Of a DNA stretch of 32,332 nucleotides, positions 3,386 to 31,903 are shown in pieces. Within the stretch, counting starts at the first letter, position 1; each line of letters starts with the position of its first letter. This DNA is from an archaeon (lineage in GTDB: Archaea > Nanobdellota > Nanobdellia > Woesearchaeales > GW2011-AR9). The position numbers and the translations under genes were made by a program. The stretch is taken from contig JAHFSD010000016.1 in the NCBI GenBank assembly GCA_023265925.1, positions 1 through 32,332 on the forward strand, given 5' to 3'. A model generated the notes under the pieces. The model did not search any database, was not told the DNA's origin, and saw only the letters and a list, made by a program, of their open reading frames with translations.

Positions 3386-6079
3386 CTAGATTTTCAACTT
3401 CTCCCGATACTTCTCCCCTTCCTGTTTCTGCTGCATTTCGTCCCAAAAGGAAGCATAGGAAAATTCCTGTTCTTTTTCCCGCACCATCTTTTTTCCCTCT
3501 TTCAGGGCAATCCGCGCCAGCACTTCCTGATGCATCCGGCGCAGGAATTCCTGCTTATCTTCCATCCTGATGATGTCGCCATACCCTTCCATGATCAAAC
3601 CGAAGGCAAAGGGGCTGGGCAGCCCGCTATTCATTTCTTCCACGACGATCTTTCCTTCCGCAATCCCCTTGATGACCTGTTGGGCATGTTCGTAATCCAT
3701 CAGGTCCTCTAAAACTTCCCGCCTCGCTTCTTTCAGGATGGGAAAATTGTTACTGATCCGTTTGACGGCATTAAACAAAATCCGGCTGCCGATCTGCATC
3801 CGGCCCGCACTTTTCTTGTGGCCCAGGTACTGCCGGAGAATCATCAACGCCCGGGCAGCACAATGCCGGAAACGCCGCTGCATGATTTCACTGCGTTCCA
3901 CGGCCTGCTCTAAGAGGGAATAAAAATTCTCAGCGCTTAATTGTTGAAAAGCTGAGAGGGGATTAAATGTTTTTTCAGCGGAGAGATAAAATCCATTGTC
4001 CGTCACGCCCATTTCCACGTCACGATGCTGCGTCCGGCCAATGACTAAGCCCAAGGCCCGTGATAAACAATCATTAACCCTTCGTCCAAACAAGGAATGG
4101 ACAATCACGTATTTCCGTCCCTGATCAACATAGCTTTCCAGGAGAATCCGCCGGTCTGAGGGGATTTTGCTGAATTGGAACTGTTCCCGGAAATACTGAA
4201 CGATGCTTTCCGCGGCATTCTCATCCACATACAAATAATCGTGGACAAACTGGACGATCTCTTCCCGGCTTTTCTTCTCCCTGAACCGCTCTTCCATCAG
4301 CCGGCGAAAGCGGTTGATTTCCATCGCCAGGTCAAATGACAAAGGCAGCATCTCCGAAAACCAGCTGGGCACGGTAGGCGGGCGATTGGCCGAGGCGCTC
4401 ACTTGGGCAGTCATCCCTCTCGAGAACTTGAACAGATAGACATTGCCGCCTAAGACAAAGACGTCGCCCGGCTGCAATCGTTCCAGAAAGCCTTCATCAA
4501 TCATGCCGACGGTCTGCTCACCGACTTTAACGGTGATGTAGGTCTCTTCCGGAATGGTCCCAATGTTAGTCATGTAAATAATCCTGGCCATTTTCCCTTT
4601 CCTGCCGATGTTACCCGTTTCCTCATCATACCAGATGCGGGCATAGACGTGGCGCTCTTCCAGGCTGACATACTGCCCGGAAAGGTATTTGATCATCTCA
4701 AAAAAGTCTTCCCAGGGCAGGGTGTGGTAACAGTAACTTTTCCTGAGCAGATTGAAGAGTTCATAGATATTGATTATCTCATTGATGGCAATGCCGTAAA
4801 TATGCTGGGCGACGACGTCCAGCGCATTGCGCGGCAGATGAATGCGGTCAATCTTCTTCTCCTTGGCAGCTTTCAATAACAGGGCGCATTCCACCAGGTC
4901 ATCCCGATCCATGACGATGATTCTGGCTTTGACGGTAGCATGCAGTTGATGGCCGGCCCTTCCGGCCCGCTGCAGGAAACGAGCCACAGATTTGGGACTG
5001 CCCAGGCACAGGACGAGGTCAATGTAGCCAATGTCAATCCCCAATTCCAGCGAGGTCGAGGAAACGACGACTTTCAATTTTCCTTCCCGCAAATTCTGCT
5101 CGGTTTTGAAACGGCTGGTCTTACTTAAGCTGCCATGATGGGCAGCAATGGTTTGGTCGGGGTAGTGCTGGGGGAACAACTCCTTGAGGTTGTGCACAAT
5201 CCTTTCGGTGGCACTGCGCGTATTGGTAAATATCAGGGTCGTGCGATGCTCCTGCACGAGCTGATGGATAAGGTCGTACATCTTCCGGTGCATCAGTAGA
5301 TATTCAGATTCCACTAAACTTCTGACCGGGCTTAGCACCTGCAGATCCATATTCTTCAGGAATTGAACGTCAATAATGCCGCAGTCCCGCTCCTCTTCCC
5401 CATTATATCCCACTAAAAAGCGAGCCACCTCTTCCAGGGGAGCGATAGTGGCAGATAATCCGACTCTGCTCAGGCCGGGAGAGATGCGTTGCAACCGTTC
5501 CAGGCTGAGGCTGAGATGCACACCACGTTTATTTTCGGCCAGGGCATGGATTTCATCCACGATGCACCACTGCACGTCCTTCAGTTTCTCCTTGAATTTG
5601 GGAGAGTTAAGGACAATCGCCAGCGATTCCGGTGTGGTGATCAGTATATGAGGGGTATGTTTGAGCATCTTAGCCTTTTCGGAGGAGGGAGTATCGCCAG
5701 TCCTGACGGCAACGCGGATGCCTAACGGTTTGCCGGCCAACTGTTCCATTTCCGCCAAAGGCTGTTTTAGGTTTTTTTCGATGTCGTTACTCAAGGCCTT
5801 GAGCGGGCTGATATAGACACAATACACTTTCTCCTCGAGAATTCCCTTTTTGGCACTATCAACCAACTCGTTCAATATGGAAAGAAATCCCGTTAACGTT
5901 TTCGTCGCTCCGGTGGGAGCTGAAATCAGGACATTTCTCCGGCAATGCACTTCCATTACGCCATAGAGCTGCGGCAGCGAGAATTCCTTGAATTTGCTGA
6001 AGAACCACTGGTTGATTAAAGGATGAAGGATGGATTTTAGTTGCAGTTCGGTGTAGGGCTCTTCGAGTTTGGTGATCAT
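3386..6079 (-). CDS. lhr: Lhr-type superfamily 2 ATP-dependent helicase, 897 aa
   Basis: Lhr enzymes translocate 3'-5' on single-stranded DNA and unwind DNA or RNA-DNA hybrids in repair. Visible are motif I at about residue 52 (SAPTGATKT, with Thr where Gly is usual before the Lys), motif II DEIH near 173, motif III SAT near 208, LELGIDIG and motif VI QRAGRAGH near 370, then the long C-terminal part expected of the Lhr core (winged helix plus domain 4). The size matches the Lhr core. The frame is open to 6247, but the extra 56 residues would overlap the divergent gene, and ATG 6079 lies 25 bp from a TATA-like box (6100-6107), so I place the start there. Confidence 0.93.
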   Translation of the reverse strand: MITKLEEPYTELQLKSILHPLINQWFFSKFKEFSLPQLYGVMEVHCRRNVLISAPTGATKTLTGFLSILNELVDSAKKGILEEKVYCVYISPLKALSNDIEKNLKQPLAEMEQLAGKPLGIRVAVRTGDTPSSEKAKMLKHTPHILITTPESLAIVLNSPKFKEKLKDVQWCIVDEIHALAENKRGVHLSLSLERLQRISPGLSRVGLSATIAPLEEVARFLVGYNGEEERDCGIIDVQFLKNMDLQVLSPVRSLVESEYLLMHRKMYDLIHQLVQEHRTTLIFTNTRSATERIVHNLKELFPQHYPDQTIAAHHGSLSKTSRFKTEQNLREGKLKVVVSSTSLELGIDIGYIDLVLCLGSPKSVARFLQRAGRAGHQLHATVKARIIVMDRDDLVECALLLKAAKEKKIDRIHLPRNALDVVAQHIYGIAINEIINIYELFNLLRKSYCYHTLPWEDFFEMIKYLSGQYVSLEERHVYARIWYDEETGNIGRKGKMARIIYMTNIGTIPEETYITVKVGEQTVGMIDEGFLERLQPGDVFVLGGNVYLFKFSRGMTAQVSASANRPPTVPSWFSEMLPLSFDLAMEINRFRRLMEERFREKKSREEIVQFVHDYLYVDENAAESIVQYFREQFQFSKIPSDRRILLESYVDQGRKYVIVHSLFGRRVNDCLSRALGLVIGRTQHRDVEMGVTDNGFYLSAEKTFNPLSAFQQLSAENFYSLLEQAVERSEIMQRRFRHCAARALMILRQYLGHKKSAGRMQIGSRILFNAVKRISNNFPILKEARREVLEDLMDYEHAQQVIKGIAEGKIVVEEMNSGLPSPFAFGLIMEGYGDIIRMEDKQEFLRRMHQEVLARIALKEGKKMVREKEQEFSYASFWDEMQQKQEGEKYREKLKI

Positions 6080-6099
6080 GGAAAAAGAGGGTAGAACGA

Positions 6100-6123
6100 T
6101 TTTATAACAGAAGTATTTATTAA
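6100..6123. promoter_or_regulatory. Divergent TATA boxes for lhr and the DUF5654-adk operon
   Basis: The minus strand reads TTATAAAA over 6100-6107, centred about 25 bp before the lhr ATG at 6079. The plus strand reads TATTTATTAA over 6114-6123, centred about 29 bp before ATG 6147. Both spacings fit leaderless archaeal transcripts. Confidence 0.6.
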
Positions 6124-6146
6124 CCTTTTCAATCTTCCTTAAGCTG

Positions 6147-6440
6147 ATGCCCACCCCCACCACCTCCCAGATCATCCAAACCTCTATTATCACCGCTTTT
6201 ACGATAGCAGCCGCTTTAATCTGGAAAGATGTGATTGTGGAATTCATCGAACTGCTCGTTCCCCCACCAACAGGATTAATTTACAAATTCATTGCTGCAG
6301 TGATTGCCACTCTGTTGGTGGTCATTGCCATCTACGCCCTGCTGAAAACAGAATCGGAAGCCGAGAAAGTTATTAAGGAAATAAAAAAGAGGAACAATAA
6401 GAGAAATAATAACAGGAACAACCAGAGGGACAAGACATGA
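6147..6440 (+). CDS. DUF5654-like membrane protein, 97 aa
   Basis: Two hydrophobic segments are seen: about residues 11-27 (ending in LIWKD) and 47-67 (FIAAVIATLLVVIAIYALL). A Lys/Arg/Asn-rich cytoplasmic tail (KKRNNKRNNNRNNQRD) follows. The order TAF-W-D-hydrophobic-short loop-TM resembles the small archaeal DUF5654 family of unknown function (from memory). Its stop overlaps the adk start by ATGA, so the two are translationally coupled. The low-complexity Asn/Arg tail is coded by AAC/AAT/AGA/AGG runs. Confidence 0.75.
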   Translation: MPTPTTSQIIQTSIITAFTIAAALIWKDVIVEFIELLVPPPTGLIYKFIAAVIATLLVVIAIYALLKTESEAEKVIKEIKKRNNKRNNNRNNQRDKT

Positions 6441-22240: not shown

Positions 22241-22816
22241 CTATTTTTTGATGGAAGATAGTATAAGCAGGCACAACCCCATGAAAACTGCCAGCAAAAA
22301 AATAGTCAGGCCTACTTTCACAAAAAATTCCTGCGGAAACGTCCGTATCAACAGCGACTCTTCCGGAAACAGCCAGTTCCCCTGCGGAAAAAACAGCTGG
22401 TGGAATAGGGTGAAAACAGAGGTAAAGCTAAGCAGGAGAAATAATAATACTATCCCGACTACCGCCAGTGTCGTGAGGCCGCCCCAGCGCAGAAAAGCCC
22501 GGCTGGTTTTGGCTCTCCAGGAAAAAGAAAAGAGGGAAACGACAGCAATAAGTAGTAAATAAAAAACAAAGTCAACCTTGTCCATGACTTTTTGCACGTC
22601 CCGCAGGTGGGAGAGTTCCTGCTCGGCATAGGGCACGGTCAGCATTTCCTGGCCATGAAGGAAATTGAGGGTGTTTTCCTGCGGAGGGGTGAGGGGATAG
22701 AACGCCAACGTCAGCTTGTAGGAAAGCAGCAGCAGAAATACGGGAAGGGTAAGGCAGAACAGGATGAACAATGCTTTGTTCCACAAGGCTTGATCTCTGG
22801 TCATAACAGTGGTCAT
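22241..22816 (-). CDS. DUF1461/TIGR01906-like integral membrane protein, 191 aa
   Basis: Four transmembrane segments are seen, with the family-like conserved block SFTSVFTLFHQLFFPQGNW followed by LFPEESLLIRTFPQEFF before the last segment, and an outer loop with HLRDVQKVMDKVD. ATG 22816 is 27 bp from a TATA-like box (CTTTTTATC, 22839-22847). The frame extends to 23077, but that extension is antisense-like in composition and would overlap the next gene. The family occurs in bacteria and archaea; its role is unknown. Confidence 0.83.
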   Translation of the reverse strand: MTTVMTRDQALWNKALFILFCLTLPVFLLLLSYKLTLAFYPLTPPQENTLNFLHGQEMLTVPYAEQELSHLRDVQKVMDKVDFVFYLLLIAVVSLFSFSWRAKTSRAFLRWGGLTTLAVVGIVLLFLLLSFTSVFTLFHQLFFPQGNWLFPEESLLIRTFPQEFFVKVGLTIFLLAVFMGLCLLILSSIKK

Positions 22817-22874
22817 GGAAAAGGAAAATTGGCTGGTAGATAAAAAGATGACGGTCGAAAAAGGATTGCTGGAT

Positions 22875-23294
22875 TTAACGCCTGATAATTGATCTCTGTA
22901 CCATTTGTAATGGGTAGATCTCACCCGGCCCATACACGCTCTTGGCCTCCGGCAGGAATTGCCTGATCGTCGGGTCAACCAGATATGTTCCTTCCGGTGC
23001 GATGACTTCGGCAATGACATGCCGCCCCCGTTCCCAGGCACTTTTTCCCGCAGGAACATTTCCATTTCTTTCGGCATATTCGAAGGAAAGAACTCTCATC
23101 CTCAAATCCGGCGCCTGTTGCCGCAGGTTGTCCTGCAGTTTGGCAACAGCAATATGGCAGAGGCCCTGGTAGGGTGAGGATGATGCTCGTAGGGCATTGC
23201 GCCGGACGGGAGGAAATCCCGGGAGGGCAATGGTGCCAGTAATGAGAATTTCCTGTTCGATTGTTCGTGCTAAGGATTCAAGGAGGGGGAGCAT
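22875..23294 (-). CDS. Possible Cys-His-Asp fold protein (transglutaminase/papain-like), 139 aa
   Basis: No family is recognised with certainty. The order Cys46 at a helix start (YQGLCHIAVAKLQ), His92 at a strand start (RGRHVIAEVI) and Asp107 in GTYLVDPTIRQF is the C-H-D triad layout of transglutaminase-like and papain-like proteins. VDPTIRQF is typical of such folds. If real it would be a cytosolic acyl-transferase, deamidase or peptidase. The promoter is weak. It is flanked by genes on the same strand, with gaps of 58 and 76 bp. Confidence 0.65.
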   Translation of the reverse strand: MLPLLESLARTIEQEILITGTIALPGFPPVRRNALRASSSPYQGLCHIAVAKLQDNLRQQAPDLRMRVLSFEYAERNGNVPAGKSAWERGRHVIAEVIAPEGTYLVDPTIRQFLPEAKSVYGPGEIYPLQMVQRSIIRR

Positions 23295-26848: not shown

Positions 26849-28675
26849 TTACGCCTTTTGCGCCTCAGAAAGCATCTTTCTGAGGGCATCACTGATAAAT
26901 TTCCCGGATGCTTTCCCCTGCAAGCGTTTCATCGCTATCCCCATCAAAGCCGCAAACGGCGCTCCGGCATGCTCTTTGATGATCTCCTTCAGGGCATTAT
27001 GGATATCTTCCGTGCCTAACGTGGCATATTTCTTCAGGTCAAACGTCCCTTTGATCAGGTCAATCAATACGTCGAGCATAATATCCTTATGAATCTTATT
27101 TTCCTGTAAGTAGTGGAACACCTCACGGAAATTCTCATCGGTCAGTTTCTCTGGATCCAGTTGATACTGCCGTTTGATGTCGAGAGGGGTGGATATCAAC
27201 GTCTCGGCGATGAAAGCCGGCTTGATCGAGGGATATTTCTCTGCCAATTCTTCAAACAGAAATACTTTATTTGATTTAGCGACAAATTCAGCCAAATCCC
27301 GGCTCAGCCCCAGCTGGTCCTGATAGCGCTGCATTTTTTCATCCAGCGTTTCAGGAAGGATAATGGTTTTGGTATCTGGAATTACCAGCGGCACATCCGT
27401 TTCCGGATACATCCTGGCCGCACCCGGCAGCGGCCGCAGATAGCTGGTCGTCCCGTCCGGATTAGCCTTGCGCACTTCGCCGGGGATGCCCTGCAGCACC
27501 TGCTGCGCCCGCTCATACACCGCTTCCAGGGCCCGGCGGGCTTGATGTTCTTCAGCGACGACGAGAACAAAGGCATCTTTCAGCCCGCAACTCAATTCCT
27601 CTTTGATGGCCTGGACTTCGTGATCGCTAATACCATAATTGGGCAATTCATCAGAATGAAATATTCCACCGACACCGGCTTTGACTTTTGCTCGGCCCGC
27701 CAGCTCGCTTCCCAGGCGATAGTGGGCACAGAGTTCCTTGCCCAGGAAGCCGGCTAACCCGTTCAATTTCATCCCTAAAACTTTTCCCTTCTGCTGCAGC
27801 GTTTTCTGAATGATTGTGGAGGAGGAACTCTTGAACAGCGCCGTAAGGTTATAGACAGCAAAGGAAACTAATTTTAACTTTTTCAATTCCTCTTTGATGG
27901 CCAGCAATTCCTTCTGCCGCTGGGCCTCATACTCGACGAGAAGAGGCAGTTGCCGTAAATCCTGTGCCCCTTTGATTTCAATCCTGGTCCCGCCGCGAAT
28001 GGATACATTCACATCCTGTCGTATGGTGCCAAGACCGCGCTTGACTCCCGGCAGCGAGCGGAGCAGGTAACCTATTTTCCTGGCGGCTTCCTGGCATTGT
28101 TGGGGAGAGGTGATGTCCGGTTCAGTTCCAATTTCAATCAAGGGAATGCCTAAGCGGTCTAATCGAAATACCCGCTCTGCTGCCGTTTCTGACACAATTT
28201 TACCGGCATCTTCTTCCAGGCAGATGTTGCTGATTCTGATTTTTCCCTGGCTGGTGTCAATCGAACCCTGCCGCCCCACTAAAGCCGTTCGTTGAAATCC
28301 GGAAGTGTTCGAGCCGTCAATGACCGTTTTACGCATCACCTGAACGACCGGTGTAATAACCGCCTTCACCGCGGTACAAAATTGTAAAGTTGTATAGAGC
28401 GCCGCGCTGTTTAATTCATGCGGCGGCTCTTCATCCGCTTCCACCAGACAGGTGGTATCAGCATAGCCTTCGTAGACAAAAGTTTTATCTTTATGCTGTT
28501 CTTCTGCTGCGGCAACATCTATTTGACCACTTTCTCCGGCCACGGCCCGCAATTTTCTGCGGAGTGTGAAATCAGGTGAATCGTCCCGCAGGATCGTCGG
28601 GCAGGAACAGAACAGCTTTTTGCCTTCCAGCTGCTGGTGGATTTCAATTCCTACTTTGAGGCCTAAATCCGGCAT
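26849..28675 (-). CDS. gatE: Glutamyl-tRNA(Gln) amidotransferase subunit E, 608 aa
   Basis: GatE with GatD forms the archaeal amidotransferase that converts Glu-tRNA(Gln) to Gln-tRNA(Gln); GatD is not in this window. Visible: KVGIEIHQQLEGKKLFCSCP at the N-terminus, YADTTCLVEADEEPPHELN, DGSNTSGFQRTALVG, RLGIPLIEIGTEPDI, GTIRQDVNVSI, the AspRS-like insertion (HSDELPNYGIS, PETDVPLV) and the helical tail ending MGIAMKRLQGKASGKFISDAL. The length is usual. The start is 27 bp from the TATA-like box shared with the divergent Toprim gene, giving a leaderless mRNA. Confidence 0.96.
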   Translation of the reverse strand: MPDLGLKVGIEIHQQLEGKKLFCSCPTILRDDSPDFTLRRKLRAVAGESGQIDVAAAEEQHKDKTFVYEGYADTTCLVEADEEPPHELNSAALYTTLQFCTAVKAVITPVVQVMRKTVIDGSNTSGFQRTALVGRQGSIDTSQGKIRISNICLEEDAGKIVSETAAERVFRLDRLGIPLIEIGTEPDITSPQQCQEAARKIGYLLRSLPGVKRGLGTIRQDVNVSIRGGTRIEIKGAQDLRQLPLLVEYEAQRQKELLAIKEELKKLKLVSFAVYNLTALFKSSSSTIIQKTLQQKGKVLGMKLNGLAGFLGKELCAHYRLGSELAGRAKVKAGVGGIFHSDELPNYGISDHEVQAIKEELSCGLKDAFVLVVAEEHQARRALEAVYERAQQVLQGIPGEVRKANPDGTTSYLRPLPGAARMYPETDVPLVIPDTKTIILPETLDEKMQRYQDQLGLSRDLAEFVAKSNKVFLFEELAEKYPSIKPAFIAETLISTPLDIKRQYQLDPEKLTDENFREVFHYLQENKIHKDIMLDVLIDLIKGTFDLKKYATLGTEDIHNALKEIIKEHAGAPFAALMGIAMKRLQGKASGKFISDALRKMLSEAQKA

Positions 28676-29083: not shown

Positions 29084-29219
29084 TGGACCCAGCCGGATTT
29101 GAACCGGCGATCCCCGCCGTACTCAGCATGGTGATGCTGGGCGCCCAGCAAAGCTGTGCATGTGAAGGCGATGTCCTCTGCAGTTCCTTTTTCAGGAAAA
29201 GCCGCTAGACCATGGGTCC
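29084..29219 (-). tRNA. tRNA-Val (CAC) with anticodon-loop intron and D-loop insertion
   Basis: Acceptor arms GGACCCA and TGGGTCC pair fully and the discriminator is A at 29084. T-arm: GCCGG-TTCAAAT-CCGGC. Anticodon stem TCGCC/GGCGG with loop TTCACAC gives anticodon CAC once a 41-nt intron (29120-29160, after position 37) is removed. The D stem is GTCT/GGAC, but its loop is 30 nt (29177-29206) instead of about 8, so a second intron of about 22 nt is likely. The mature RNA would be 73-74 nt. No CCA is encoded. A TATA-like box (TTTATTAAAG, 29244-29253) lies 29 bp upstream. Confidence 0.88.
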
Positions 29220-30677: not shown

Positions 30678-30790
30678 GCAGACGTGCCGGAGTGGTCAAA
30701 CGGGTACGGTTCAGGGCCGTATGGTTCAGTACCTACGCAGGTAATCGGGAAGAACTCTTTCCGGTCTGCAATCGAATCCTGCCGTCTGCA
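30678..30790 (+). tRNA. tRNA-Leu (CAG) with a T-loop intron
   Basis: Acceptor GCAGACG pairs with CGTCTGC, discriminator A. D stem CCG/CGG with GG in the loop; anticodon stem TACGG/CCGTA with loop TTCAGGG gives CAG and G37, as expected for Leu; a class II variable arm follows. The T stem GCAGG (30737-30741) only finds its partner CCTGC at 30778-30782, and the loop must read T..TCGAAT, so about 29 nt (30743-30771) containing a CGGGAA/TTTCCG hairpin are an intron. Mature length is 84 nt. A TATA-like box (TTTTAAAG, 30647-30654) is upstream. No CCA is encoded. Confidence 0.88.
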
Positions 30791-31523: not shown

Positions 31524-31632
31524 AATCTGCCTCTTCTGTAATGGTATGAAAACGTGGAAGGATATAAAGGTTACGCTTGGCAAATTTCTGGGGGAAAACC
31601 TTTTAAACTGTTCGTCTTCTTTTCTCATCAAC

Positions 31633-31787
31633 GGGGCCGTAGTCTAGCTTGGTCTCAGCAAGGCAGCTTGCTTGGGGGCAATAGGATTCACCCTTGGGGT
31701 TATTTAACCATAATGGGTGCGACCGGAGTTCGAATAGTCTCCGACTATCAACCGAGAAGCGGAGCATCGAATATCTTCGCGGCCCCA
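31633..31787 (+). tRNA. tRNA-Pro (GGG) with three introns (D loop, anticodon loop, T loop)
   Basis: Acceptor GGGGCCG pairs with CGGCCCC (31780-31786), discriminator A. The anticodon stem CACCC/GGGTG encloses 21 nt; removing 14 nt (31700-31713) after position 37 leaves TTGGGGT with anticodon GGG and G37. D stem GTCT/GGAT encloses 38 nt (31646-31683), about 29 more than normal, with a GCAAG/CTTGC hairpin. T stem CGGAG (31724-31728) pairs with CTTCG (31775-31779) only if about 39 nt (near 31736-31774, with ATAGTC/GACTAT) are removed from the T loop. Mature length is then about 73 nt. A TATA-like box (TTTTAAAC, 31601-31608) is 28 bp upstream. Confidence 0.85.
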
Positions 31788-31903
31788 GTTTTTTTCTTTG
31801 TCTAGCGTTAGCTTCCGGGGTTGATAAGGGGCAGAGCCCCTTATATCTTAGCGGCCCCAGTTTTTTTCTTTGTCTAGCGTTAGCTTCCGGGGTTGATAAG
31901 GGG
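31771..31903 (+). repeat. Tandem duplication of tRNA-Pro 3' end plus downstream sequence
   Basis: 31771-31831 and 31843-31903 (61 bp, one mismatch, period 72 bp) are copies. Copy 1 starts in the last intron and holds the final tRNA exon and its poly-T terminator; copy 2 repeats the exon (GCGGCCCCA) and terminator. Between them ATAAGGGGC and GCCCCTTAT form a perfect hairpin (31824-31844). Confidence 0.9.

Follow-up and report, generated by a model that had tools for sequence, protein, structure and literature searches.

Multiple-intron tRNA genes have been described in the Thermoproteales, together with intron transposition (PMC8450103; PMC4033280), and Pyrobaculum calidifontis carries 71 introns in 46 tRNA genes (PMC8450103). 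Among the Asgard archaea, 92-95% of the tRNA genes of Atabeyarchaeia and Freyarchaeia are given as intron-bearing (PMC11291895), and multiple or non-canonical tRNA introns have been reported for N. equitans and for ARMAN-1/2 (Micrarchaeota) (PMC4033280). With respect to the splicing endonuclease EndA, reviews class alpha4 enzymes as narrow in specificity and assign a broad specificity to the (alpha-beta)2 and epsilon2 types (PMC6379350; PMC4033280). The locus reported here is of a known kind, being an archaeal multi-intron tRNA gene with bulge-helix-bulge (BHB) introns, and the type of enzyme that accompanies it is unexpected.

The window, i.e., the whole stretch of 32,332 nucleotides that was analysed, is contig C57 of a 1.2-Mb MAG that is 86% complete (the host genome). 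At positions 31633-31787 of the forward strand it contains a tRNA-Pro(GGG) gene interrupted by three introns, all of them removable. Three introns in the tRNA-Pro(GGG) gene of a DPANN archaeon had been proposed by a first-pass annotation and are supported by the present analysis; its insert sizes (29, 14 and 39 nt) and coordinates were correct, its assignment to Pro from the anticodon GGG and G37 holds, and the exact intron junctions were refined using BHB geometry. The gene and its immediate flanks are composed as follows:

31600-31607 (+): TATA-like box CTTTTAAA, lying 26-33 nt before G1, a putative promoter element judged by its sequence
31633-31652 (+): exon 1, nt 1-19, with the 5' strands of the acceptor and D stems and the D loop to G19
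31653-31681 (+): intron 1, 29 nt, D loop 19/20, with bulges GG^T and AA^T and central helix GCTT/GGGC
31682-31699 (+): exon 2, nt 20-37, with the 3' strand of the D stem, the 5' strand of the anticodon stem, anticodon GGG and G37
31700-31713 (+): intron 2, 14 nt, canonical position 37/38, with bulges GG^T and AA^T and central helix TTGG/CCAT
31714-31734 (+): exon 3, nt 38-59
31735-31773 (+): intron 3, 39 nt, T loop 59/60, a canonical BHB with bulges AA^T and TA^T and inner helix CTCCG/CGGAG
31774-31787 (+): exon 4, nt 60-73, with the 3' strands of the T and acceptor stems and A73, CCA not being encoded
31789-31795 (+): terminator-like T-run directly after the gene, a candidate terminator judged by its sequence

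Scoring was performed with a custom covariance-type tRNA parser in which long introns of flat cost are allowed anywhere. When introns were forbidden, the spliced 73-mer scored 64.6, whereas retention of any single intron lowered the score to 34.6 or less and the unspliced region scored 10.7, in agreement with the earlier claim that the gene folds as a tRNA only if the inserts are removed; the 73-nt product lacking all three introns is the sole version with a tRNA fold. When introns were allowed, the gene scored 43.4, as compared to a maximum of 27.8 for the shuffled sequence (25 shuffles) and 36.0 for the shuffled window. ARAGORN identified the spliced product as tRNA-Pro(ggg). A search for another fold giving a shorter intact tRNA found none, and this candidate is ruled out because no intron-free fold of the region scores above 10.7. 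Rfam matched no RNA family in the window at the gathering threshold, and at four intron-family loci searched to E<=1 it matched tRNA only; a group I intron or other catalytic RNA was rejected on the lack of any such match in the window and at these loci.

At the D- and T-loop junctions the BHB has the canonical 3-4-3 geometry, with 4/4 central pairs each, and the 37/38 junction has 3/4. In intron 3 the central helix is T54T55C56G57/CGAA with the T stem outside, placing the predicted cuts at A58A59^U and UA^U60, while the inner hairpin of intron 1 is AGCAAG/CTTGCT. The central helix of intron 2 has a U-U at one end and its inner helix is almost absent. A hairpin had been ascribed to each of the three inserts, which applies to those of the D and T loops; the 14-nt insert has only a potential 4-bp hairpin in competition with BHB pairing. 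The D-loop introns of tRNA-Pro from three species all have 4/4 pairs (GCTT/GGGC in the host genome, GCCT/AGGC in G001 and GCTT/GAGC in G017), and the helix occupies the same offset in G001 and G017, so that pairing is conserved though the sequences differ. Across the scored introns, at least 3/4 central pairs at the canonical offset were present in 36/36 T-loop (59/60) introns, as compared to 0.19-0.23 in shuffles (three genomes), and at least 3/4 central pairs in 39/49 anticodon-loop introns, as compared to 0.16-0.21 in shuffles (three genomes). The T-loop introns share a terminus, (Y)GAA plus two nucleotides, which pairs with the conserved TTCR; they have this end in common because one half of the T-loop helix is the nearly universal TTCR.

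From this geometry, the route to the mature tRNA can be proposed. A precursor of about 155 nt would be transcribed, in which the outer helix at each junction would be provided by the neighbouring stem (D, anticodon or T), and the 4-bp central helix by exon loop nucleotides paired with the end of the intron. Each 3-nt bulge would be cleaved between its second and third bases, the six cuts presumably being made by a single alpha-type EndA acting as a homotetramer, and the exons would then be joined by RtcB.

The exons are settled because relatives of the same family carry the gene uninterrupted. Such orthologues are present in G002, G016 and G022, and that of G016 is identical to the spliced tRNA-Pro at 69/73 positions, the four differences consisting of a compensatory change from U27-A43 to C27-G43, a change from G-U to A-U (28-42) and one unpaired base. 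Intron 1 is missing from these three genomes as well as from G012 and G020, whereas the orthologues of G001 (same genus) and G017 have introns in both the D and T loops. The orthologue of G012 has only a 37/38 intron, of 14 nt and with a sequence unlike that of the host genome, the orthologue of G020 only a T-loop intron, and the orthologue of G021 an intron at 53/54. These different combinations show that introns have been repeatedly gained or lost at fixed sites.

Interruption is not particular to this gene. In the host genome 37 tRNA genes were found by the custom parser, of which 35 are interrupted, by approximately 64 introns (a first set of 35 genes accounts for 60 of them, to which Pro(TGG) and Pro(CGG) add two apiece). 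In G016, 27 of 31 tRNA genes are interrupted (48 introns), and in G034, a single contig from another family of the order, 15 of 21 (21 introns). This census is incomplete: it covers the stretches around search hits, its detection routes are for the most part biased towards genes with few introns (four genes entered via an intron family), a few intron boundaries are off by 1-2 nt, and a fixed rule left out class II variable arms. A set of 80 named Woesearchaeal loci near EndA gave one tRNA in its scanned part, and is unusable as a census while indicating few false positives. Within the window exactly three tRNA genes score above noise, Pro(GGG) at 43.4 and the two listed below, the next candidate scoring 34.7 and the best candidate of the shuffled window 36.0:

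29084-29219 (-): tRNA-Val(CAC), two introns (D loop, approximately 20 nt; anticodon loop, 41 nt), parser score 51.8
30678-30790 (+): tRNA-Leu(CAG), class II variable arm, 29-nt intron in the T arm (approximately 54/55), parser score 49.4

The T-arm intron of Leu(CAG) has 4/4 central BHB pairs. As a separate observation, the anticodon-loop intron of Val(CAC) resembles one in Ser(CGA) of G034.

Multi-intron tRNAs are therefore normal for a Woesearchaeales-type DPANN archaeon. The first-pass annotation had considered them unusual in a DPANN-like genome, a view not supported by the 35/37 interrupted genes of the host genome, by two relatives that are alike or by the precedents of N. equitans and ARMAN-1/2 (PMC4033280). 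Standard detection misses most of these genes: ARAGORN reported no tRNA in the whole window (0/3), and the Rfam tRNA model identified above threshold 7 of at least 37 tRNAs in the host genome and 3 to 19 in seven relatives. Tallies of tRNAs from Woesearchaeal MAGs, which serve as a quality measure, will come out too low.

A Woesearchaeal EndA profile found one EndA gene per genome in 8/8 genomes. The gene of the host genome (L001:1474-2070) encodes a protein of 198 aa with one N and one C domain, with up to 79-86% identity to proteins of Woesearchaeota/Nanoarchaeota MAGs, which is the basis for calling the host a Woesearchaeales-type DPANN archaeon, and the catalytic residues Y134/H144/K175 are present in 38/38 Woesearchaeal EndAs. 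The predicted fold (pLDDT 80.7) is closest to M. jannaschii 1a79, with a TM of 0.91 to the target and 40% identity. No match to a second EndA subunit was obtained in the host genome with either PF01974 or the Woesearchaeal EndA profile at E<=10, and no second EndA gene was found in G034, G028, G006, G015 or G003 either; additional PF01974 hits, weak and below the cut-off, were confined to G009, G014 and G016. The Crenarchaea-specific loop (CSL) is absent, a 10-residue gap being present at the loop in the alignment with S. tokodaii EndA. The enzyme thus has neither the epsilon2 architecture, a three-unit chain of approximately 390 aa, nor the (alpha-beta)2 architecture, as neither a structural subunit gene nor the CSL was found. 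The single gene and the likeness to 1a79 point to an alpha-type enzyme, probably an alpha4 homotetramer. RtcB is present, in the host genome as two pieces at contig ends.

Homologous introns recur among the tRNA genes of a single genome. In the host genome, 10 introns of different tRNAs are homologous, nine of them located in T loops and the tenth in the anticodon loop of Ala, and G016 has a separate, unrelated family (AACCTTTTGGAAAAGCTTGACCAAAAC...) whose five members occupy four T loops and an anticodon loop (L277, L279, L281, L298, L299). The core of the 10-member family, which recurs in other genera, comprises two conserved hairpins with some paired changes and follows the pattern GC[AC]AGTTACACTA[TG]GC[AG]AGTCGTACTCA plus a GTGGGG hairpin. 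Copies of the core outside introns are found in L205, L235, L241 and L202, several of them antisense just 3' of tRNA genes, and those in L205, L235 and L241 are flanked by direct repeats of approximately 19-24 nt. A viral origin of the dispersed core was rejected on the lack of an exact match in viral contigs. A different repeat, here named repeat F, trails the tRNA-Pro(GGG) gene as part of a 72-nt tandem duplication (31759-31902) that contains the tRNA-Pro 3' end and the repeat:

31791-31844 (+): hairpin repeat F (GGGGTTGATAAGGGG..CCCCTTAT), copy 1, trailing the tRNA
31846-31859 (+): extra copy of the tRNA 3' end from nt 60 (TCTTAGCGGCCCCA)
31863-31903: partial copy 2 of hairpin repeat F

Repeat F occurs at seven loci of the host genome, every one directly 3' of a tRNA gene (Pro three times, Val twice, Leu twice), and in most cases the next feature is a copy of the 3' end of the same tRNA starting at nt 60; the array that it forms downstream of Pro(TGG) has three units and includes tRNA 3' ends that start at this same nucleotide.

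The repeats and the duplicated 3' end downstream of the gene, and the incomplete state of the genome, would fit a decayed pseudogene with chance insertions, a functional tRNA-Pro(GGG) being located elsewhere. Such decay is highly improbable, considering that every exon helix is intact and that there is a compensatory change with respect to a relative, that the introns are placed exactly at BHB geometry and at sites where relatives have introns, and that this is the only Pro(GGG) gene found, introns being present in Pro(TGG) and Pro(CGG) as well. The tRNA-Pro(GGG) gene of this Woesearchaeales-type DPANN host is almost certainly intact, with three independent BHB introns that would be spliced out. 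As regards the enzyme, the first-pass annotation had held that the gene implies an endonuclease of broad specificity; this does not follow from what was found, since the D- and T-loop BHBs are canonical and the single alpha-type EndA, without CSL, resembles the narrow-specificity M. jannaschii enzyme. Removal by relaxed specificity, through a cryptic two-subunit EndA or through an alpha-type EndA relaxed by a basic residue 61, is rather unlikely. It would draw on residue 61 itself, which is basic in 38/38 EndAs (32 K, 6 R), aligns with F in M. jannaschii and lies at the loop end where crenarchaeal enzymes bear the specificity loop, on the best sequence match of EndA, which is the catalytic subunit of an enzyme of broad specificity, that of N. 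equitans, and on the 10/49 anticodon-loop introns with fewer than three central pairs; set against these are the eight genomes (one of them a single contig) with no second EndA gene, the missing CSL and the canonical geometry of all 36 scored T-loop introns. Either strict BHBs suffice for EndA or K/R61 relaxes it, and the T- and D-loop data favour the former, while the invariant K/R61 leaves some room for a relaxed specificity. The alpha-type EndA may need the latter after all for introns within the stems and the D region of other tRNAs, which may not all fit a strict BHB.

For the spread of these introns, a path can be outlined. Woesearchaeal tRNA genes have accumulated BHB introns at many sites, with T-loop 59/60 as a hotspot because the universal TTCR already supplies a ready-made BHB half; any intron with (Y)GAA and two further nucleotides at its end would thus be spliceable from almost any tRNA, and homologous introns could spread between tRNA genes, in a direction and by a mechanism that are conjectural. 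A tentative reading regards the T-loop introns as short mobile DNA elements, or as descendants of such elements, which insert at 59/60 and are tolerated since they can be spliced. It accords with a 10-member family distributed over nine T loops and one anticodon loop with a core conserved across genera, with the extra-tRNA core copies bounded by direct repeats, and with repeat F lying 3' of a tRNA gene at 7/7 of its loci, usually ahead of a 3'-end copy from nt 60; but no transposase or integrase is linked to the intron core or to repeat F, RNA-level transfer between tRNAs would yield the same pattern, and there are also T-loop introns, that of Pro among them, which are short and unrelated. A similarly speculative picture would combine tRNA fragmentation at the level of Thermoproteales with a plain alpha-type EndA, 59/60 acting as a universal landing site at which tiny hairpin elements become introns and spread, so that tRNA introns might be domesticated or still-active mini mobile elements.

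The system resembles that of Thermoproteales in that a single tRNA can hold as many as three BHB introns, with both canonical and non-canonical sites in use, and in having similar introns across different tRNAs of one genome (the 10- and 5-member families). It differs in its DPANN host and its single alpha-type EndA gene without CSL, as compared to the (alpha-beta)2 EndA with CSL of Thermoproteales, in the strong T-loop 59/60 hotspot, and in intron families not found in Rfam. Intron densities are comparable to those of Pyrobaculum calidifontis and of the Asgard genomes of PMC11291895; as in Atabeyarchaeia and Freyarchaeia, a different lineage, most tRNA genes are interrupted, with many non-canonical sites and many multi-intron genes, while shared intron families and the EndA type are not reported in the available part of that source. 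ARMAN-1/2 and N. equitans, also DPANN, have broad-specificity epsilon2 and (alpha-beta)2 endonucleases (PMC6379350), neither of which was found here. With M. jannaschii EndA (alpha4, 1a79) the Woesearchaeal enzyme shares a single gene of alpha size, the catalytic Y/H/K, the fold and the lack of a CSL, but the former is listed as narrow, whereas the latter serves far more introns and has the invariant K/R61.

Within the open-licence PMC literature, the only return from a search for Woesearchaeal tRNA introns was a paper on group I introns and rRNA, and, provisionally, neither the lineage, nor its T-loop hotspot, nor this enzyme combination seems to have been described there. A DPANN order is thereby added to the few archaeal lineages with mostly interrupted tRNA genes, and a test case is provided against the proposal that intron-rich tRNAs accompany a loop-bearing, broad-specificity endonuclease; a simple reason is also offered for the T-loop hotspot and for the spread of introns between unrelated tRNAs.

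Elsewhere in the window, the reverse strand encodes an Lhr-type helicase (3386-6247), a GatE-type Glu-tRNA(Gln) amidotransferase subunit (26849-28675) and, at 22241-23077, a protein matching Lit (lipoprotein intramolecular transacylase, PF07314), a family known from bacteria and here located on an archaeal contig.
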